Below, one piece after another: positions 20,501 through 27,493 of a stretch of 36,669 nucleotides of DNA (position 1 is the first letter of the stretch; each line of letters opens with the position of its first letter). Source of the DNA: Akkermansia muciniphila (GTDB lineage Bacteria; Verrucomicrobiota; Verrucomicrobiia; Opitutales; Opitutaceae); contig CAMCZZ010000025.1 in the NCBI GenBank assembly GCA_945888375.1, forward strand, positions 1-36,669, in the 5' to 3' direction. Made by a program: the position numbers and the translations under genes. The notes below the pieces were generated by a model, which was given only the letters and a program-made list of their open reading frames with translations, made no database searches and was not told the DNA's origin.

Positions 20501-22143
20501 CTTCATTCACCGGCGTCGCCCTCACCGTCGGCGCCTACTCCACCGTCTCCCAGGATGCCGCCACCTTGGGTTTCCGCACCACCGAGGCCGCATCCGGCCG
20601 GCCTCTCGTTGTGCGCGCCCTCGGCTTCGTCGTCGCCGGCGCCTGCTCCGGCAGGACTTTTACCGCCGAGTTCCGCGGCGTGCGCGGTCAGCTTCTCGCC
20701 ACCCAGTCCGCCACCGCCGCCTCCGCCGGCCTCAAACTTTTCTTTGGCCTCGACGCCGGCACGGTCACCCAGGAATGGATACACTCCGTCGTTCTTAGCG
20801 GCGATAACGCCTCCGCCAACATCGGCCTCGATGATGTCGGCTACACTCCCGTTACAGCAGTGAACAACGGCGCGCTCGCCTTTGTTGACGGTCTGCCCGT
20901 TTACACCGCGCCTGCTGCGTTCTCCGGCGTCTCCCGCTTTTCCTACACCGTCACCGATGGCGTCAACACCGCCGACGCCGAGGTCACCGTCACCATCTCG
21001 ACCGCTCCGGTCGCCATCGCCTCCGCCACCGCTTCCACGTTTCAAGATCCCAACACCCCCGCCAATGTCCTGGATGGCATCACAGACGCGTCCATCTCCC
21101 GCTGGTCCGGCTTCGGCGACGGGGCCACTCTCACCCTCACCCTCGCCTCCCGTCAAAAGATCGGCGCGATTAACATCTCCACTTTCGAGGGCAACTCGCG
21201 CCGCGCCATTTTCGACGTGCAGACAAGCGATGACGGCACGAACTGGACCACCGTCTTCATCGGCTCCAGTTCCGGCACCACCACCGATCTCGAACGCATC
21301 GCTCTCACCCCCAGTTGGGGACTCTTCCTCCGCATCGTCGGCCACGGCTACGTCCGCAACGACGCCCAGCCCGGCGCGCTCTGGAACAGCTTCGGCGAGG
21401 TCCAGGTCATTCCCGCCGCCAACTCCGCGCCGCTCGCGTCCCCCGTCTCCGCCAATCTTCGCGCGGGCGCCCCGGTCGTTCTCAACCTACTCGCCTCCGC
21501 CAGCGATCCCGACGCCGGCCCCGCCGCTCTCACCGTTACCACCTCCACGCCCGCCAGCGGAACCGTTCAGCTCTCCGCCGGTATCGCCACCTATACTCCT
21601 CCCACCGGTTTTCGCGGTCTCGCTTCTTTCAACTACACCGTGAGCGACGGGGGCCTCTCCGCCACCTCCCTTGTGTCGCTCAACGTCGGCGCCCCCGCTT
21701 CCGCCGAGGCCTTCACCAATCTCTACTTCGATGGCAATCAGCGCGACGACCCGGACATCAGCGGCGATGATGCCGACTTCGACCGCGACGGCCTCTGCAA
21801 CCTCCTCGAATACGCCCTCGTCACCGACCCTCTTTCCGAAACCTCCGTCTCTCCTCCCTCCCTTCAAATTTCCGGTCTCAGCCCTCAGCCGTTATTTCTT
21901 CAGCTCACCTTCCGCCGCAATCTCGCCGCCACCGATCTCACCTACACCGTCGAGGCCAGCTCCAACCTCACCACCTGGACACCCATCGCCCGCGCCATCG
22001 GCCAGTCCTCGTGGGTGAACCTAAGCGGCGGCGCTCAATCAATCAGTGAAACTCCCCTTGATGCCGTCACCAGCCAAGCGACCGTCACCGACGCCACCGC
22101 CATCACCGCCGCTCGTTACCTCCGCCTTCGCGTCAGCCATTAG
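17569..22143 (+). CDS. Giant secreted polysaccharide lyase family 8 protein with Ig-like and F5/8-type domains
   Basis: The 1524-residue protein starts with a signal peptide (about 1-25). The PL8 alpha/alpha toroid (about 30-370) contains 'GNWFPWHLAIP' (Asn148) and 'DGSFIQHNTHAYTGGYG', where His264 and Tyr273 have the same nine-residue spacing as the His/Tyr pair of streptococcal hyaluronate lyase; 'GREVARSGSSEHG' supplies the Arg region. Beta-sandwich domains follow (about 400-800). After the lyase come an Ig/cadherin-type module ('PVRINVLANDSSASGNPLTV' and 'FSYTVTDGVNTADAEVTV'), an F5/8-type C domain (about 1145-1285), another Ig-like module (about 1290-1380), and the shared tail beginning 'DRDGLCNLLEYAL' and ending 'ARYLRLRVS'. 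PL8 enzymes cut hyaluronan, chondroitin or xanthan; the substrate here is unknown. Confidence 0.92.
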   Translation: MIAPFFRRLGAFALMAGIVSASLPAQTAANYATVRARFSDSQTGGTALNTSDTTYSGKISALNSAAQTNWNNLIKTANRTQLWSDLPISTTASDSLTAPYARLNSLAVAYATPGAGLYRNTALRDDILSALEWLNTNHFNPSRPFYGNWFPWHLAIPLNVVGTFACLHDGITDTARRTALYSAYVSAIDYYQNTAGRTFSWSGANLVWRAKIDLGLGAALESSSRLALGRDRLSALAGVGNERNVFAYVTTGDGFYTDGSFIQHNTHAYTGGYGLYLLNELSIVVETIAATPWAITDPNFANLFKWADDAFDPVMFRGGLMTHTQGREVARSGSSEHGYGHVALTSIARLARFAPSADAARFRALVKQQINSDAYRNFLSSANLASAALVKPLLDDSAVVARSPRNGLFVLAGMDRVVLQRGTWAYAVSLSSKRISKYESINGENLRGWYLGDGAAYVYNGDLAQYSDAYWPTVNPYRLASTTVDNRARANAGTSSPNTIDPRTSKAWVGGSSVLGDYGAAGMDHEAAQSDLRGKLSWFFFDDEVVHLGAGLTTSSTNTNRVESVVMARMVGHAGNNGAATFTANGTARAATSGVTESLTGVTYAHLDAPFQTAYGTGSIGYYFPSPSALQARREARTGAWSDINTGGSTTAITRNFLNLWFDHGTGLLAPGASFAYAVLPGKTANQTATYQQNPGIQVLANSASVQAVRERTLNALSANFWSASPAVPDTVAGLTADRPCSVSLLTRNGQLNLGVSDPTQELTAASPLILELPAGASATVSKDAAITVLALTPRVRLSINLAGTRGRSLAATFSVAPLTAAPDTAATSPGTPVRINVLANDSSASGNPLTVTAATFAPPAVFTALPHGVAVLDAATASTFPASLTNAAGAAAPANLSALPGFSALTAWRDAFRAFAPKGASANGITNYQLRSDAARSALRFQINANTTSNPSAGGATTSIDLTGSAGDALYVGAVGASFTGVALTVGAYSTVSQDAATLGFRTTEAASGRPLVVRALGFVVAGACSGRTFTAEFRGVRGQLLATQSATAASAGLKLFFGLDAGTVTQEWIHSVVLSGDNASANIGLDDVGYTPVTAVNNGALAFVDGLPVYTAPAAFSGVSRFSYTVTDGVNTADAEVTVTISTAPVAIASATASTFQDPNTPANVLDGITDASISRWSGFGDGATLTLTLASRQKIGAINISTFEGNSRRAIFDVQTSDDGTNWTTVFIGSSSGTTTDLERIALTPSWGLFLRIVGHGYVRNDAQPGALWNSFGEVQVIPAANSAPLASPVSANLRAGAPVVLNLLASASDPDAGPAALTVTTSTPASGTVQLSAGIATYTPPTGFRGLASFNYTVSDGGLSATSLVSLNVGAPASAEAFTNLYFDGNQRDDPDISGDDADFDRDGLCNLLEYALVTDPLSETSVSPPSLQISGLSPQPLFLQLTFRRNLAATDLTYTVEASSNLTTWTPIARAIGQSSWVNLSGGAQSISETPLDAVTSQATVTDATAITAARYLRLRVSH

Positions 22144-22174: not shown

Positions 22175-25100
22175 ATGCCATTCCTTCGTTTTCTTCTACC
22201 ACGTTTCTGCCTGGCCGGCCTGGCCGCGCTCTGCCCCCCGTTCGCCTCCGCACAAACCCCGCCTCCTGTCGTCACTCGTCCGCTGGAAGTCTGGTGGGGC
22301 GGCTACAAGGGCTCGCAACAACTCGTGGACGGAGGCGCCACCCAATGGAATTTTGTCCGCCAGAACATGGATGGCTTTATCCTCCACGGCGCGTATTGGA
22401 ACTACTCGACCAACACGTTCGGCGCACCCTCGCCTGACGTCGTTGGCCCCAAGCTCGCCCCCCTTCTCAACGAGTTCTCCAAGCCCGTGCTCGTCGAGCA
22501 TATGCTCGCGGGCGAATACCCCGACATAGACTCCGCCTTCGGGACCGCCTTTGCCGGCAATCTCTCCGATTCCGCCGCCTTCGGCTCCGCCATCGCCAAC
22601 ATCAAGCGTCTGCAAAACTACGGCTTCCCCCGGCCCGACGTCTCCAGCGATTTCATCATGAACTCGTGGCAGGAGGCCGTGCGTTTCCACCCCGAGTGGA
22701 CGTCCAAGGAATTTTTCACCGCTCTCACCGGCGCCTGGGAGACCTACGACGGCACCCAGTTCGACCCCGCCCCCGGCTCCGCCGACCGCCTGCGCTACGG
22801 CTGGTTTCGCCAATGGGTCGAGCGCCTCGCCACCGCTTTTCCCAGCATCAAAGTCACCGCTACCAACTCCCCCGTTTATCTGCCTTGGACCGACAATGGC
22901 GATACCCGCCGCGAGCTCGGCGGCTCGCTCAATAACTTCTACACGTGGCTGAAACTCGAACGGCGCGGCGACACAGTAACCGCCCTGTATTCTGGCGACG
23001 GTTTCGGCTGGGCCCCGCTCGGCTCCGCCACCGTCCCGCTCGGCGCCTCCCCGCGCGCCGGCCTCTACGTTTCCTCCGCCAACCCCGCCCGCCTCGCCCA
23101 GGCCCGCTTCACCGACGTGCGTGTCCTGCCCGTGTTCACCGCCGATATCGGCAAAACCGGTCGCGGCGGCACCATCGCCGTCTCCGGTTCCACCTACACC
23201 CTAACCGGACGGGGCAACGATTTCACCCACCCAGGCAACAACACCACCGACGCCCAGTTCTACGCCTGGCGCGACTGGAGCGGCGACGGCACCTTTACCG
23301 TGCGGCTCGATTCCCTCGCCGGCTCCAACCCCGCCCGCACCAATCCCGCCGGTGAACTGCCCACCGCCGGCCTCACCCTGCGCGAATCCTCCGCCGTCGG
23401 CGCCCTCCAGGTCTCCCTCCACGCCAACCTCGCCAACCAGCTCGAATTCCTCGCCCGCACTTCCACCAACGGCGGCCTCGCCGCCGTCTCCGGCAGCGGC
23501 TCCCCGCTCGCCTCTCTCGGCGTCGCCTCCGTCCCGCGCTGGCTCCGCCTCACCCGTAGTGGCATCACCCTTACCGCCGCGCACTCGCCTGACGGCACCA
23601 CGTGGACCACCCTCGCCGGCTCCGCCTCGGTCGCCTTCCCCACCGCCATCCAGGTCGGCGTCGTCGCCGACAGCCAGGTGCGTTTTGAGACCGCCACCGC
23701 CGTTTTCTCCAATGTCTCTTTTCTCACCGCACCCACCGTCGCCTTCTCCGGCGCTGATCTTGGCGCCGCCGGCGCCGGAGCCGCCTCCTCCCTCGCCGGC
23801 TCCACTTACACCCTGAAGGCCGCCGGCACCGGCATCGCCACCGGGGCCACCGGCGACGCGCTCCGCCTTCACTCCACCGCCTGGTCCGGTGACGGCACTT
23901 TGATCGCCCGACTCGAGTGGTTTGCCGACGACGCTTCACCCGCCACCGCTCTCGCCGCCGCCGCCCAGATGGGTCTCACTCTGCGCGCCTCCACCGCCGC
24001 CGACGCCCCCGCCGTCGCCATCGCCTTCACTCCGCAACAGGGCCTGCGCACCTTCGCCCGCACCGCTTCCGCCGCCGCCGCCACTAACCCCGCCACTTAC
24101 GGCGTGGGCGAGGTTTCCATCCAGCCGCTCGGCGCCAACTACCGCCCGCTCCTCCACTACTTCACCGGCAACGCCTACCTCGCCGGGCTGCACGAGGCCT
24201 TCCCCGTTGCCAGCGCATTCCACGACAACTACGCGGGCTTCACCACCGATTCCCCCTACGCTGACTACCAGAAATGGGGCGGCTCCGAGACCCACCCCGA
24301 CGCCCTTCGCCATCGCCGCAAAATCATCCTCTATGAGCGCTGGCTCCAGGATCGCGGCCGCGTCCACGACTTCATCGCCAACTCCACCGGCGGCGATTTT
24401 AGCGGTTTCAACACCGCCACCCAACCCGGTCGCGACGCCTGGGATCTGCTCTACAAACAACACTCCTTGCGCTCCCTCCAGCTCCACCAGCTCGAGGGCG
24501 GGCGCGCCGACAAGGTCTATCTCGAAAGCTGGTATGACGGCCCCTTCACCCTCGTGCCCGAGTCTCAAAACGGCACCTTCGCCAACCTCGTCCGTGACGC
24601 GATTTACTACGTCAAGGGCATAGACCAGACCCTTGCCCTCACCGCCCTCACGCCAACCACCGCCACACCCGCCGCGATGGGCGCACCGGTCACCTACACC
24701 GTCCGCCTGCAAAACACCGGCACCGTCCCCGCCCTGCCCGTCCTTCACGCCTTCGAGAGCGGCGGCTCAGGCTGGTCCGCCACCTACACGCTCAACGCCG
24801 CCGACGTCACCGCCTCCATCACCTCCTCAGCCGGCCTCGCCGTCACCGACGCCGCCCTCTACTCCGCCAACGAGCTCATGGACGCCGGCGCCTCGATTGA
24901 CCTCACCGTCACCCTCACGCCCAACGCCGCCACCGCCCCGCGCTCCATTCTCCTCCGCGCCTTCTGGAATCCGCAGGACCCCTCCGCCGCCGTCCGCTCC
25001 AGCATCACTCTCTCCGCCTCCGCTCCCACCCAGCTCCTGGCCAACGGCTTCGCCGAGGCCGGTTCCACCTCCGGTTGGATTTCCAATGGCGGCGGGTCCG

Positions 25101-27493
25101 TCTCGCTCGACACCTCCGTCTTCCGCTCCGGCACCGCCTCCATCCGCGGCAACCGCTCTCAAACCTACCAGGGCCCCGCCCAAAACGTCCCCGGCCGCCT
25201 GCACCCCGGCCAGACCTACCGCCTCACCGCTTGGACCCGCGTCAGCACCGGAACGCCGAGCGTGAAAGCCACCCTCGCCTACACCGGCACCACCGGTTCA
25301 GCCATTTTCAACAGCCTCCAAATCGTCACCGCCGACGCCACCGGTTGGACACCCCTGGACGTCACCTTCCGCTACCTCGAGCCCAACGGTCCCGCCACCG
25401 CCCTCGTGCTCTACTTCGAGGGTCCGCCCGCCGGCACTTCCCTCTACATTGACGACGCCAGCCTCGTCCTCCTGCCGCCCGTTTGGACCCAGACCGCCGC
25501 CGGTATCCAATCTTGGACTACCGCCGCTAACTGGTCTTCCAACCAGCCGCCAGCCTCCTCGTCTCTCATCCCGCTCTCCTTTTTCCCCGGCCAGACGCTT
25601 CCCGCCGGAAACCTCACCTCCACCCAAAACAGCGCCACCCCGTTCCAGACTTCCGCGCTCACCGTCGCCGGCGCCGCGCCCGCCTCCGGCAACGCCTCCG
25701 TCACCCTCGCCGGCCAGACCATCGAGACACCCTCGCTCACCCTCGCCGCCACCGGTCCGTCCCTCGCCTACACCATAACCACTCCCCTCTCCTCACCCGC
25801 CGATTTCTCCGTCACCGGCGACGGCACCGCCAGCTTCACCCTCGCCGCCCCGCTATCGGGCAACGGCTCGCTGACCAAATCCGGTAACGCCACCCTCGCC
25901 CTCACCTCCGCCAACACTTTCACCGGCGGCACCACCGTCGCAGCAGGCACCCTCAGCGTGGGCAACGCCACCGCCCTCGGTTCCGGCTCCGTCACCCTCT
26001 CCGGCGGCGCGCTCTCCGCCGCCCCTTCCACTAACCCCATCCTCGCCAACCCACTCACTTTCGCCGCCGACACCACCCTCACCGGCAACCTCACCTTCTC
26101 CAGCCCGGCCCAGCTCTCCCTCGCCAACCGCATCCTCACCGTCCCTTCCGGCACCGTTACCCTCTCAGGCGTCCTGTCCGATGATGCTTCACGCAACCTC
26201 ACCAAAACCGGCCCCGGCACACTCGTGCTCTCCGCCGCCAACACCTATCGCGGCACCACCACGATTTCCGCCGGCGCTCTGCGCGTCTCCCATCCTTCAG
26301 CGCTCGGCAACTCCACCGCCAAAATCTTTCCCCCCGGCGGCGCCGCCCTCGCCGCCCTCGAGCTCGCGGGCGACATCACGTTCAACCGCCCGGTCGAGCT
26401 CGCCATGCACAACACCGTCGGCCACGCCCAGCTCCGCAACACCTCCGGCAACAACACTTTTTCCTCCGCCCTCACCCTCAACGGCGGCGGCGCCCGCTGG
26501 GAGATCACTTCAATCGCCGGTAATCTCATCGTCTCCGGCCCGGTCGCCAACATCGTCACCGGCACCGACACCTGGCGCACCCTCTTCCTCAACGGCCCCT
26601 CGGCCGGCGCTTTCACCGGTAACGTCACCGACTCTCCCACTTCGAAGCTCAACCTCACCGTCGTCTCCGGTGCATGGTCGCTCTCCGGCCCCGCCAAAAC
26701 TTACACCGGCCCCACTTTCGTTTCCGGCGGTAGTCTCCGCGCGGATACTGCGCTCGCTTCCGCCGTCACTGTCCAGTCCGGTGCCACCTTCTCCGGCTCC
26801 GGTTCGACTTCCTCAACCCTCACCCTCCAGACCGGCGCAACTTTCTCCACCCGCCTCACCGACTGGAACGCCACGCCCTCCGCCTTTTCCGCCGCGCAAC
26901 TGATCGCCACCGGGGCCACGTCCTGGACCGTCCGCTTCGACACCACCGGCCTCGCCAACTTCTCCGAAACCGCCCGCACCGTTCCCCTCGTCTCCACCTC
27001 AGGCGGTCTCGTCAACGTCGCCCCTGCCTCGATCACGCTCACCCCGATCGGGTTTCCCGGATCAGGCACGTTTTCGTTAAGCACCTCCGGCAACTCCCTC
27101 GCCCTCGTTTACGCTCCAAATCTCTACGCCGCCTGGACCGCCGGCGTCGCCTGGGGCGGCGCCAACTCCGCCCCCACCGCCGACCCCGACGCCGACGGCC
27201 TGCCCAACCTCCTCGAATACGCCCTCAACTCCGGCCCGCTCGATTCGAGTAACACAGACACACCTGTCTGTGGTCTGAGCTCTTCCCCTTCAGCTTTAAC
27301 CTTAACCTTCACCCGCATCGCCGATCCCGCCCTCACCTACGAAGTGCAGGCCTCCGCCGACCTGATCACGTGGGACGCACCTTTCTGGTCCAGCACCGGC
27401 GCAGCCAACCTCGCCGGCTCCGTCACCGTCACCGACCTCACTTCCCTCTCCGGCAACCCCCGCCGTTTTGTCCGCCTGCGTGTCACGCGTTAG
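22175..27493 (+). CDS. Giant secreted protein: split unassigned catalytic-type domain, DUF1349-like array, CBM, beta-repeat region
   Basis: The ATG at 22175 starts a signal peptide (MPFLRFLLPRFCLAGLAAL...), making 1772 residues; the frame upstream of it is read-through. Residues about 35-255 ('LEVWWGGYKGSQ', 'MDGFILHGAYWNY', 'VKVTATNSPVYLPW'-like) and about 640-815 ('LLHYFTGNAYLAGLHEAF', 'VYLESWYDGPF') look like two halves of one enzyme domain. Between them lie a C-terminal half, a whole, and an N-terminal half DUF1349-like sandwich. Next come an Ig-like module (about 823-948), a CBM4/9-like domain (about 953-1102), autotransporter-associated beta-strand repeats ('LTKSGNATLALTSANTFTGG', 'LTKTGPGTLVLSAANTYRG'; about 1225-1400) and the shared tail ('ADGLPNLLEYAL ... 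RRFVRLRV'). I cannot assign the enzyme family. It begins 31 bp after PL8 and is probably co-transcribed. Confidence 0.8.
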   Translation: MPFLRFLLPRFCLAGLAALCPPFASAQTPPPVVTRPLEVWWGGYKGSQQLVDGGATQWNFVRQNMDGFILHGAYWNYSTNTFGAPSPDVVGPKLAPLLNEFSKPVLVEHMLAGEYPDIDSAFGTAFAGNLSDSAAFGSAIANIKRLQNYGFPRPDVSSDFIMNSWQEAVRFHPEWTSKEFFTALTGAWETYDGTQFDPAPGSADRLRYGWFRQWVERLATAFPSIKVTATNSPVYLPWTDNGDTRRELGGSLNNFYTWLKLERRGDTVTALYSGDGFGWAPLGSATVPLGASPRAGLYVSSANPARLAQARFTDVRVLPVFTADIGKTGRGGTIAVSGSTYTLTGRGNDFTHPGNNTTDAQFYAWRDWSGDGTFTVRLDSLAGSNPARTNPAGELPTAGLTLRESSAVGALQVSLHANLANQLEFLARTSTNGGLAAVSGSGSPLASLGVASVPRWLRLTRSGITLTAAHSPDGTTWTTLAGSASVAFPTAIQVGVVADSQVRFETATAVFSNVSFLTAPTVAFSGADLGAAGAGAASSLAGSTYTLKAAGTGIATGATGDALRLHSTAWSGDGTLIARLEWFADDASPATALAAAAQMGLTLRASTAADAPAVAIAFTPQQGLRTFARTASAAAATNPATYGVGEVSIQPLGANYRPLLHYFTGNAYLAGLHEAFPVASAFHDNYAGFTTDSPYADYQKWGGSETHPDALRHRRKIILYERWLQDRGRVHDFIANSTGGDFSGFNTATQPGRDAWDLLYKQHSLRSLQLHQLEGGRADKVYLESWYDGPFTLVPESQNGTFANLVRDAIYYVKGIDQTLALTALTPTTATPAAMGAPVTYTVRLQNTGTVPALPVLHAFESGGSGWSATYTLNAADVTASITSSAGLAVTDAALYSANELMDAGASIDLTVTLTPNAATAPRSILLRAFWNPQDPSAAVRSSITLSASAPTQLLANGFAEAGSTSGWISNGGGSVSLDTSVFRSGTASIRGNRSQTYQGPAQNVPGRLHPGQTYRLTAWTRVSTGTPSVKATLAYTGTTGSAIFNSLQIVTADATGWTPLDVTFRYLEPNGPATALVLYFEGPPAGTSLYIDDASLVLLPPVWTQTAAGIQSWTTAANWSSNQPPASSSLIPLSFFPGQTLPAGNLTSTQNSATPFQTSALTVAGAAPASGNASVTLAGQTIETPSLTLAATGPSLAYTITTPLSSPADFSVTGDGTASFTLAAPLSGNGSLTKSGNATLALTSANTFTGGTTVAAGTLSVGNATALGSGSVTLSGGALSAAPSTNPILANPLTFAADTTLTGNLTFSSPAQLSLANRILTVPSGTVTLSGVLSDDASRNLTKTGPGTLVLSAANTYRGTTTISAGALRVSHPSALGNSTAKIFPPGGAALAALELAGDITFNRPVELAMHNTVGHAQLRNTSGNNTFSSALTLNGGGARWEITSIAGNLIVSGPVANIVTGTDTWRTLFLNGPSAGAFTGNVTDSPTSKLNLTVVSGAWSLSGPAKTYTGPTFVSGGSLRADTALASAVTVQSGATFSGSGSTSSTLTLQTGATFSTRLTDWNATPSAFSAAQLIATGATSWTVRFDTTGLANFSETARTVPLVSTSGGLVNVAPASITLTPIGFPGSGTFSLSTSGNSLALVYAPNLYAAWTAGVAWGGANSAPTADPDADGLPNLLEYALNSGPLDSSNTDTPVCGLSSSPSALTLTFTRIADPALTYEVQASADLITWDAPFWSSTGAANLAGSVTVTDLTSLSGNPRRFVRLRVTR
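22940..24110 (+). repeat. Permuted array of DUF1349-like domains inside the 22175 gene
   Basis: Three stretches of the protein align by eye. 'FYTWLKLERRGDTVTALYSG...' (about 22940-23140) is a C-terminal half. 'ADIGKTGRGGTIAV...GSTYTL' to 'PRWLRLTRSGITLTAAHSPD...ATAVFSNVSF' (about 23140-23730) is complete. 'GADLGAAGAGAASSLAGSTYTL...WSGDGTLIARLEWF' (about 23750-24090) is an N-terminal half. Together they make two domain lengths, inserted out of phase between two halves of another domain. Confidence 0.55.
27253..27272. repeat. Perfect inverted repeat inside a coding region
   Basis: CACAGACA (27253-27260) and TGTCTGTG (27265-27272) are perfect complements around CACC. They lie inside the shared C-terminal tail of the 22175 gene, where the four tail copies differ most ('NTDTPVCGLSS'). 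The base composition is clearly less GC-biased than the surrounding codons. Confidence 0.6.

Follow-up and report, generated by a model that had tools for sequence, protein, structure and literature searches.

Two DUF1349-like sandwich domains inserted out of phase in a probable polysaccharide-degrading enzyme of Verrucomicrobiota

The stretch of DNA analyzed here (the window, 36,669 bases) is the whole of one contig, C25, of a 3.22-Mb draft genome in 39 contigs. It contains a gene, P0001, which encodes a protein of 1772 residues on the + strand (coding positions 22175–27490; Table 1). We used the ATG start chosen in the original prediction, and the open frame already begins upstream, at 22046, with GTG; the first base of residue r lies at window position 22175+3(r-1). 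The upstream neighbor of P0001 encodes a polysaccharide lyase of family 8, which matched Lyase_8_N (E 8.2e-65), Lyase_8 (E 9.8e-66) and Lyase_8_C (E 5.3e-16). Genes for polysaccharide degradation are abundant on the contig (window 1397–35666), which also codes for GH3, GH5, GH10, PL14-like, heparinase II/III-type and DUF1961 proteins. Parts of a sugar ABC transporter and regulators of the LacI and AraC types are encoded on the same contig. Because of this gene setting, P0001 is probably a polysaccharide-degrading enzyme; its N-terminus reads as that of an exported protein, and the enzyme is predicted to be of the (beta/alpha)8 type. Export and the barrel fold were both deduced from sequence: eight strand-like conserved motifs were recognized by reading the enzyme alignment, and the enzyme part of the structure model was poor.

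Table 1. Features of the P0001 gene and its upstream neighbor, with positions in the window
Feature	Residues of P0001	Window position	Strand	Basis
Polysaccharide lyase family 8 gene, upstream neighbor of P0001		17569..22143	+	Pfam-type domain matches
P0001 gene	1772-residue protein	22175..27493	+	ATG start as chosen in the original prediction
Enzyme domain part 1, read as beta1–beta5	37–241	22283..22897	+	relatives' family profile 2–170 of 330, 164.5 bits
DUF1349-like sandwich, C-half	254–317	22934..23125	+	sandwich profile 113–176 of 182, 46.0 bits
DUF1349-like sandwich, whole	323–518	23141..23728	+	sandwich profile 4–178 of 182, 118.1 bits
DUF1349-like sandwich, N-half	525–643	23747..24103	+	sandwich profile 2–111 of 182, 53.7 bits
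Enzyme domain part 2, read as beta6–beta8	654–816	24134..24622	+	family profile 177–329 of 330, 188.1 bits
CBM_4_9 carbohydrate-binding domain	954–1086	25034..25432	+	Pfam PF02018, E 1.6e-16
Passenger-type beta-strand repeat, best of three matched	1342–1371	26198..26287	+	Pfam PF12951, E 3.4e-21

The enzyme part of P0001 had no Pfam match. When a 14-row alignment of the enzyme was searched, no member matched NCBIfam at E 0.1, and at E 1 Pfam returned seven families with one member each, the best being GH97 (0.053). Sequence searches of the PDB with the protein, a joined profile, one relative and the 14-row profile found nothing credible for the enzyme; the best rows were Oskar (E 0.32), methionine synthase (E 0.33) and MgGH51 (E 1), and the whole-protein query gave none. 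The enzyme family, which adjoins a polysaccharide lyase here, is thus without any Pfam or NCBIfam model. Residues E73, D124, S356 and W357 (numbering of the joined first row) are invariant in the 14-row alignment and D263 is nearly so; all five were read as candidates for active-site residues. A plasmid collection yielded four weak matches, which were confined to the sandwich region.

The enzyme domain of P0001 breaks off near residue 245 and restarts near residue 650. The original prediction had placed this split near residues 255 and 640, and it was borne out by a family profile of relatives, which matched residues 37–241 and 654–816. The break follows the motif KVTATNSPVY, read as beta5, and precedes alpha5. 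Between the two enzyme parts lie the C-terminal half, a whole copy and the N-terminal half of a DUF1349-like sandwich domain, in that order, and the sandwich profile coordinates differed from the predicted interval (22940–24110) by at most 10 bases. The sandwich profile was built from 19 domains of other proteins of related genomes, among loci L008–L033, with P0001 excluded; the seed for collecting these domains was the middle domain of P0001, and four of the 19 came from one array. In local alignments, the middle domain was matched at its C-terminal part by residues 258–318 (score 90, z 10.3) and at its N-terminal part by residues 541–632 (score 101, z 8.2), and in neither case did any of 500 shuffles score as high. 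No similarity was detected between the C-half and the N-half by local alignment (score 29, with 280 of 500 shuffles as high). Profile and shuffled alignments thus agree with the earlier reading of the insert as half, whole and half of one sandwich type, amounting to two domain lengths inserted out of phase.

When the outer halves were rejoined in the order N then C, the sandwich profile recognized one domain of 109.6 bits at positions 19–176 (the first residues being clipped), compared with 122.5 bits for the middle domain and 53.0 and 54.1 bits for the halves separately. Left in their native order, the outer halves gave two pieces of 49.8 and 53.3 bits. At the sequence level, the outer copy is the same domain with its halves swapped and complementary, that is, a circular permutant. 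P0001 as a whole marginally reached the gathering score of DUF1349 (PF07081; 32.6 versus 32.4 bits) with two stretches, the better of which (residues 454–516) corresponds only to the C-terminal part of that profile (116–176 of 179).

The arrangement is conserved. A whole-genome search found it complete in two further genomes of the genus, and spread over two contigs in a third. A scan of the genome contigs of 84,980 species gave seven loci (L075–L081), of which L075, L076 and L077 are labeled Opitutaceae and correspond to the three genomes just mentioned; L078 is labeled Akkermansiaceae, and L079 and L080 Verrucomicrobia. The order C-half, whole domain, N-half was present in five of them (L075, L077, L078, L079 and L080) with a nearly identical cut, the N-half ending at position 104–112 and the C-half beginning at position 110–114 of the sandwich profile. 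Nine profile positions are absent between the halves of L080; in L079 the halves overlap by one or two positions, the N-half starts at position 14, and the first enzyme portion is incomplete. L076 starts inside the middle domain, at a contig end, and its genome carries the arrangement over two contigs. L081 encodes an uninterrupted enzyme. The inserts of the five other genomes were 42–94% identical to that of P0001; since the project names of L075 and L076 are similar, as are those of L077 and L078, the genomes represent fewer projects than their number. Native order was absent, and all six proteins with a complete insert in one frame had the C-half, whole, N-half order, which upholds the view that this is not simple domain insertion. 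At L079 1–440, the frame has an N-terminus unlike the enzyme that reaches the contig end, possibly a misjoin.

Uninterrupted relatives were gathered with enzyme profiles from sets of 387, 143 and 384 genomes, of which 13, 5 and 17 matched, respectively (the genome of P0001 was counted in two sets, and some genomes twice). Duplicate frames and a truncated paralog (L088/L090) were removed before counting, which left 39 rows in the enzyme tree. The enzyme was uninterrupted in 32 of these rows, so that the contiguous homologs called for in the original prediction do exist, and the sandwich was absent from the frames of all 32. The seven insert-bearing rows formed one clade (support 100/100), and a single change explains the trait. 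The uninterrupted rows nearest to this clade (L081, L105, L110 and L106) are all long-branched, and the placement of L081 as its sister was weak (86/77). From the 32 sandwich-free, one-piece rows and the single clade of insert-bearing rows, it follows that the sandwiches entered the enzyme. Among the matched genomes, many of them drafts and with some candidates scored per genome, we found no intermediate form of this enzyme, neither one with a single permuted sandwich nor one whose insert is in phase. The truncated paralog (G291:C38) is a 207-residue relative of the enzyme whose domain lacks its central portion (profile about 70–232).

In the sandwich tree, the outer and the middle sandwiches formed separate clades (99/91 and 100/99), and their divergence predates the split of the host lineages. 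The two clades were not sisters among the sampled domains, the outer clade joining a long-branched row. The two units were therefore already different on entry, or diverged soon afterwards. Trees of the separate halves were short (64 and 109 columns) and left the source of the outer halves unsettled. The usual view is that inserted domains come as complete, in-phase units, since their two ends have to be close together. Here, two full periods of a tandem array of sandwiches may have been inserted in the enzyme as one segment; any cut point in such an array would give the series C-half, whole, N-half, and a segment of whole-number period length would close again at whatever point it was cut.

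We consider it likely that the beta5–alpha5 loop of the enzyme carries a two-domain insert in which the outer sandwich, circularly permuted, is assembled from the complementary halves, with the middle sandwich in between. The insert would then comprise two DUF1349-like (concanavalin-like) sandwiches placed out of phase in that loop, and the halves would most probably fold together as a complete outer sandwich. The loop of this sandwich between profile positions 111 and 113 would be opened and spliced to the enzyme, so that both tethers would leave from adjacent points. Its native termini, normally neighbors, would be bridged by the middle sandwich, attached through its own native termini. The original prediction had the halves pairing across the enzyme, which needs rewording, because in the chain they are separated by the middle sandwich and not by the enzyme. 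The insert may serve to hold polysaccharide near the active site.

The pattern of core residues is preserved in both halves. In P0001, hydrophobic residues occupied 12 of 13 core positions versus 6 of 48 other positions in the C-half, 14 of 17 versus 7 of 87 in the N-half, and 25 of 31 versus 22 of 141 in the middle domain; the lowest core values in the set were 9/12 (C-half of L080) and 13/17 (N-half of L077). Between P0001 and its nearest relative, L075, dN/dS was 0.03–0.23 across five parts, indicating purifying selection. Against L077 and L078 it was locally higher (0.65 and 0.34 in the middle domain, 0.95 and 0.77 at one junction), which shows that parts of the insert evolve fast. An AlphaFold2 model of the insert alone had a mean pLDDT of 79.3 and a pTM of 0.69. 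Ten-residue means were 75–90 in nearly all of the C-half and 77–92 in nearly all of the N-half, with five strands in the former and eight or nine in the latter; the pLDDT values of the five insert models were 79, 70, 42, 40 and 39, so that one or two were good. For the whole region, the mean pLDDT was 53.7, and the ten-residue means of the enzyme were 29–58 (part 1) and 24–41 (part 2). In structure searches with the models, the middle domain aligned with 3mep_C (Z 19.0–19.4, rmsd 2.3 over 166 residues) and 3o12 (Z 18.8), which we take to be DUF1349 members; CBM66 (4b1m, Z 14.8) and the C-terminal domains of GH43 scored lower. According to the models, the whole middle domain has the concanavalin-like sandwich fold. 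It filled the lists of the searches with both models, and the missing outer sandwich is uninformative there because the aligner works in order and cannot show a permuted pair.

Further cases of a C-half preceding its N-half were sought in sandwich-bearing loci, in larger stretches and in 71 genomes of the family, of which 32 matched; a class-wide sandwich search matched 66 of 150 genomes, with the strongest matches listed. By sequence comparison, two more conserved proteins show the arrangement again and a third possibly does; the cuts are of at least two kinds. One of these is a protein of 2972 residues (L116 20–8935, genome G040) with eight Calx-beta stretches and weak metalloprotease-like matches. 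The C-half of its permuted sandwich was taken to start at residue 1497 and the N-half to end at residue 1674, and the rejoined halves scored 139.9 bits as one domain. In the full frame, the C part matched from profile position 64, overlapping the N-half; we read positions 64 to about 112 as host sequence, because the Pfam DUF1349 match starts at residue 1500 and residues 1441–1470 alone scored 0.1 bits. On a Calx-beta profile built from L116 itself and its relative L118, the two flanks matched positions 3–37 (9.1 bits) and 32–96 (50.3 bits). Joined, they matched positions 4–96 with 48.8 bits, which does not exceed the score of the second flank by itself, and the first flank thus adds little. 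One Calx-beta domain of L116 is probably interrupted by the permuted sandwich. The same arrangement was found in G080 (L118 557–9367) and G154 (L148) at 77–78% identity, so that within one genus this host of about 2950 residues has kept the permuted sandwich in three genomes. Further along the same protein, L116 (2189–2553) and L118 carry a tandem of two in-phase sandwiches; the tandem of L116 is a possible donor of the permuted insert.

The second protein (L115 2636–6085, genome G015) has a C-half at residues 164–227, a whole sandwich at residues 242–409 and then a stretch read as the N-half, which the profile missed in full frames and which scored 8.4 bits alone. C-half and N-half rejoined gave 53.4 bits versus 48.1 bits for the C-half alone. 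The flanks are rich in helices, have no Pfam name and read as TPR-like. The layout was also found in G198 (L129) at 57% identity over nearly the entire protein, and over two contigs in G164 (L130 and L134); this type of helical-repeat protein is conserved at 57–66% in the genus. The possible third case is a protein of the histidine-kinase type (L119 13–3654, genome G028), in which a C part (residues 469–516, profile 126–172) precedes an N part (residues 528–660, profile 4–131), the cut lying one hairpin further on than that of the enzyme-type insert. An OB-like domain as its host is only suggested by the sequence and received no support from a profile built on three repeats within that protein. 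A PA14 domain is present in this protein near the OB-like stretches. Three other candidates were rejected. L117 and L120 resembled orphan halves, but L117 lies close to where its frame ends, and Pfam identifies L120 as a complete DUF1349 protein (E 3e-34); L121 has both parts in the normal order. In L127 (G020:C18), some 50 residues with a high content of glycine and proline interrupt a sandwich at profile position 62.

We tentatively propose that, in Verrucomicrobiota, DUF1349-like sandwiches have repeatedly entered loops of unrelated hosts out of phase, as one or two whole periods, with the outermost copy permuted and joined through a hairpin. The hosts would include an enzyme barrel and a Calx-beta domain as well as a helical-repeat protein and, less surely, an OB-like domain. 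Recombination between repeats to form a circle, followed by integration, is one example of how out-of-phase insertion could occur. If the proposal holds, tandem arrays would be reservoirs of insertable, already closed modules.

Other explanations of the P0001 layout concern its reality and its direction of origin. An assembly collapse, raised in the original prediction, or a chimera might be suspected, given that the window is one contig of a 39-contig draft and that the genomes of the relatives are drafts as well; nevertheless, both junctions are repeated in five other assemblies that diverge by 6–58% over the insert, and with the same arrangement in five other genomes this explanation is excluded as far as the data go and can be regarded as hardly conceivable. 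The reverse history, in which the enzyme grew inside a sandwich protein or became inserted there, with the array as host and a later permutation at the gene level, has some appeal in that, viewed cyclically, the enzyme occupies a loop of the outer sandwich. That the barrel grew inside one sandwich repeat had been among the predicted possibilities. It is disfavored by the 32 of 39 rows without a sandwich, which include L081, L105, L110 and L106 beside the insert clade, and by the restriction of the insert to one clade, and we judge it very improbable.

A more serious alternative is that the halves are unpaired, being what is left of tandem sandwiches after degeneration and trimming at both ends, and now serve as linkers around a working middle domain. 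The outer halves do score below the middle domain (46.0 and 53.7 versus 118.1 bits), their pairing is not visible in the available model output, and the final half in the helical-repeat host fell under the profile threshold in full frames. Remnants of this kind are, however, difficult to reconcile with halves that are nearly complementary in all six proteins having both, with a hydrophobic core retained in both halves in relatives down to 44% identity, with the low dN/dS against L075, or with the Calx-beta host, in which the rejoined halves behaved as one domain. Unpaired halves are therefore unlikely, and pairing of the C-half with the N-half in three dimensions, as deduced from their sequences, is the reading that we prefer.

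Simple insertion (A1-B-A2) shares with P0001 a host that is contiguous in relatives (32 of 39 rows), but the native order of the insert is not shared. With respect to DUF1349 (PF07081), the sequence match is just over the cut-off and the middle domain matches 3mep and 3o12 in fold, whereas the outer copy is permuted here. A close likeness is found in the GH10 xylanases Pm25 and Xyn10C, for which two CBM4 modules in the beta3–alpha3 loop are described (ranges 161–321 and 324–486; PMC7848910). As in P0001, two modules occupy a beta–alpha loop of a barrel enzyme in a setting of polysaccharide degradation; in that account, however, the modules are in phase, whereas the outer module of P0001 is split with its order reversed, and the loop and the enzyme family also differ (PMC7848910). 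A survey of domain insertion notes that circular permutation can occur in inserted domains and cites RNA polymerase (PMC13114784). Its nested A1-B1-C-B2-A2 architectures resemble P0001 in having a discontinuous host and inserted domains, but there B1 precedes B2 in native order, whereas the C-half of the outer sandwich of P0001 precedes the N-half; moreover, the host enzyme and the middle domain of P0001 would occupy two opposite openings of the outer sandwich, unlike a nested insertion as outlined there (PMC13114784). The HABAS domains of the bacterial RNA polymerase beta-prime subunit are likewise small beta domains that are recursively inserted, with variants related by circular permutation (PMC11515920). 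They have another fold and mainly one host, in contrast to the sandwiches here, with several unrelated hosts and about one or two whole periods (PMC11515920).

In the literature, judged mostly by titles and the openings of abstracts, we found no description of an out-of-phase insert of whole sandwich periods. P0001 unites insertion and permutation with a second domain carried on the native termini of the permuted one. The novel point is the recurrence of inserts with the C-half ahead of the N-half in other hosts. These proteins suggest an alternative route of domain insertion, in which a piece of an array with a whole number of periods closes whatever its phase, its terminal half-domains being reunited. 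Such a route also gives an easy criterion by which to look for permuted inserts, which domain libraries reveal incompletely: the Pfam DUF1349 model matched two stretches in P0001 and one each in L115, L116 and L118.
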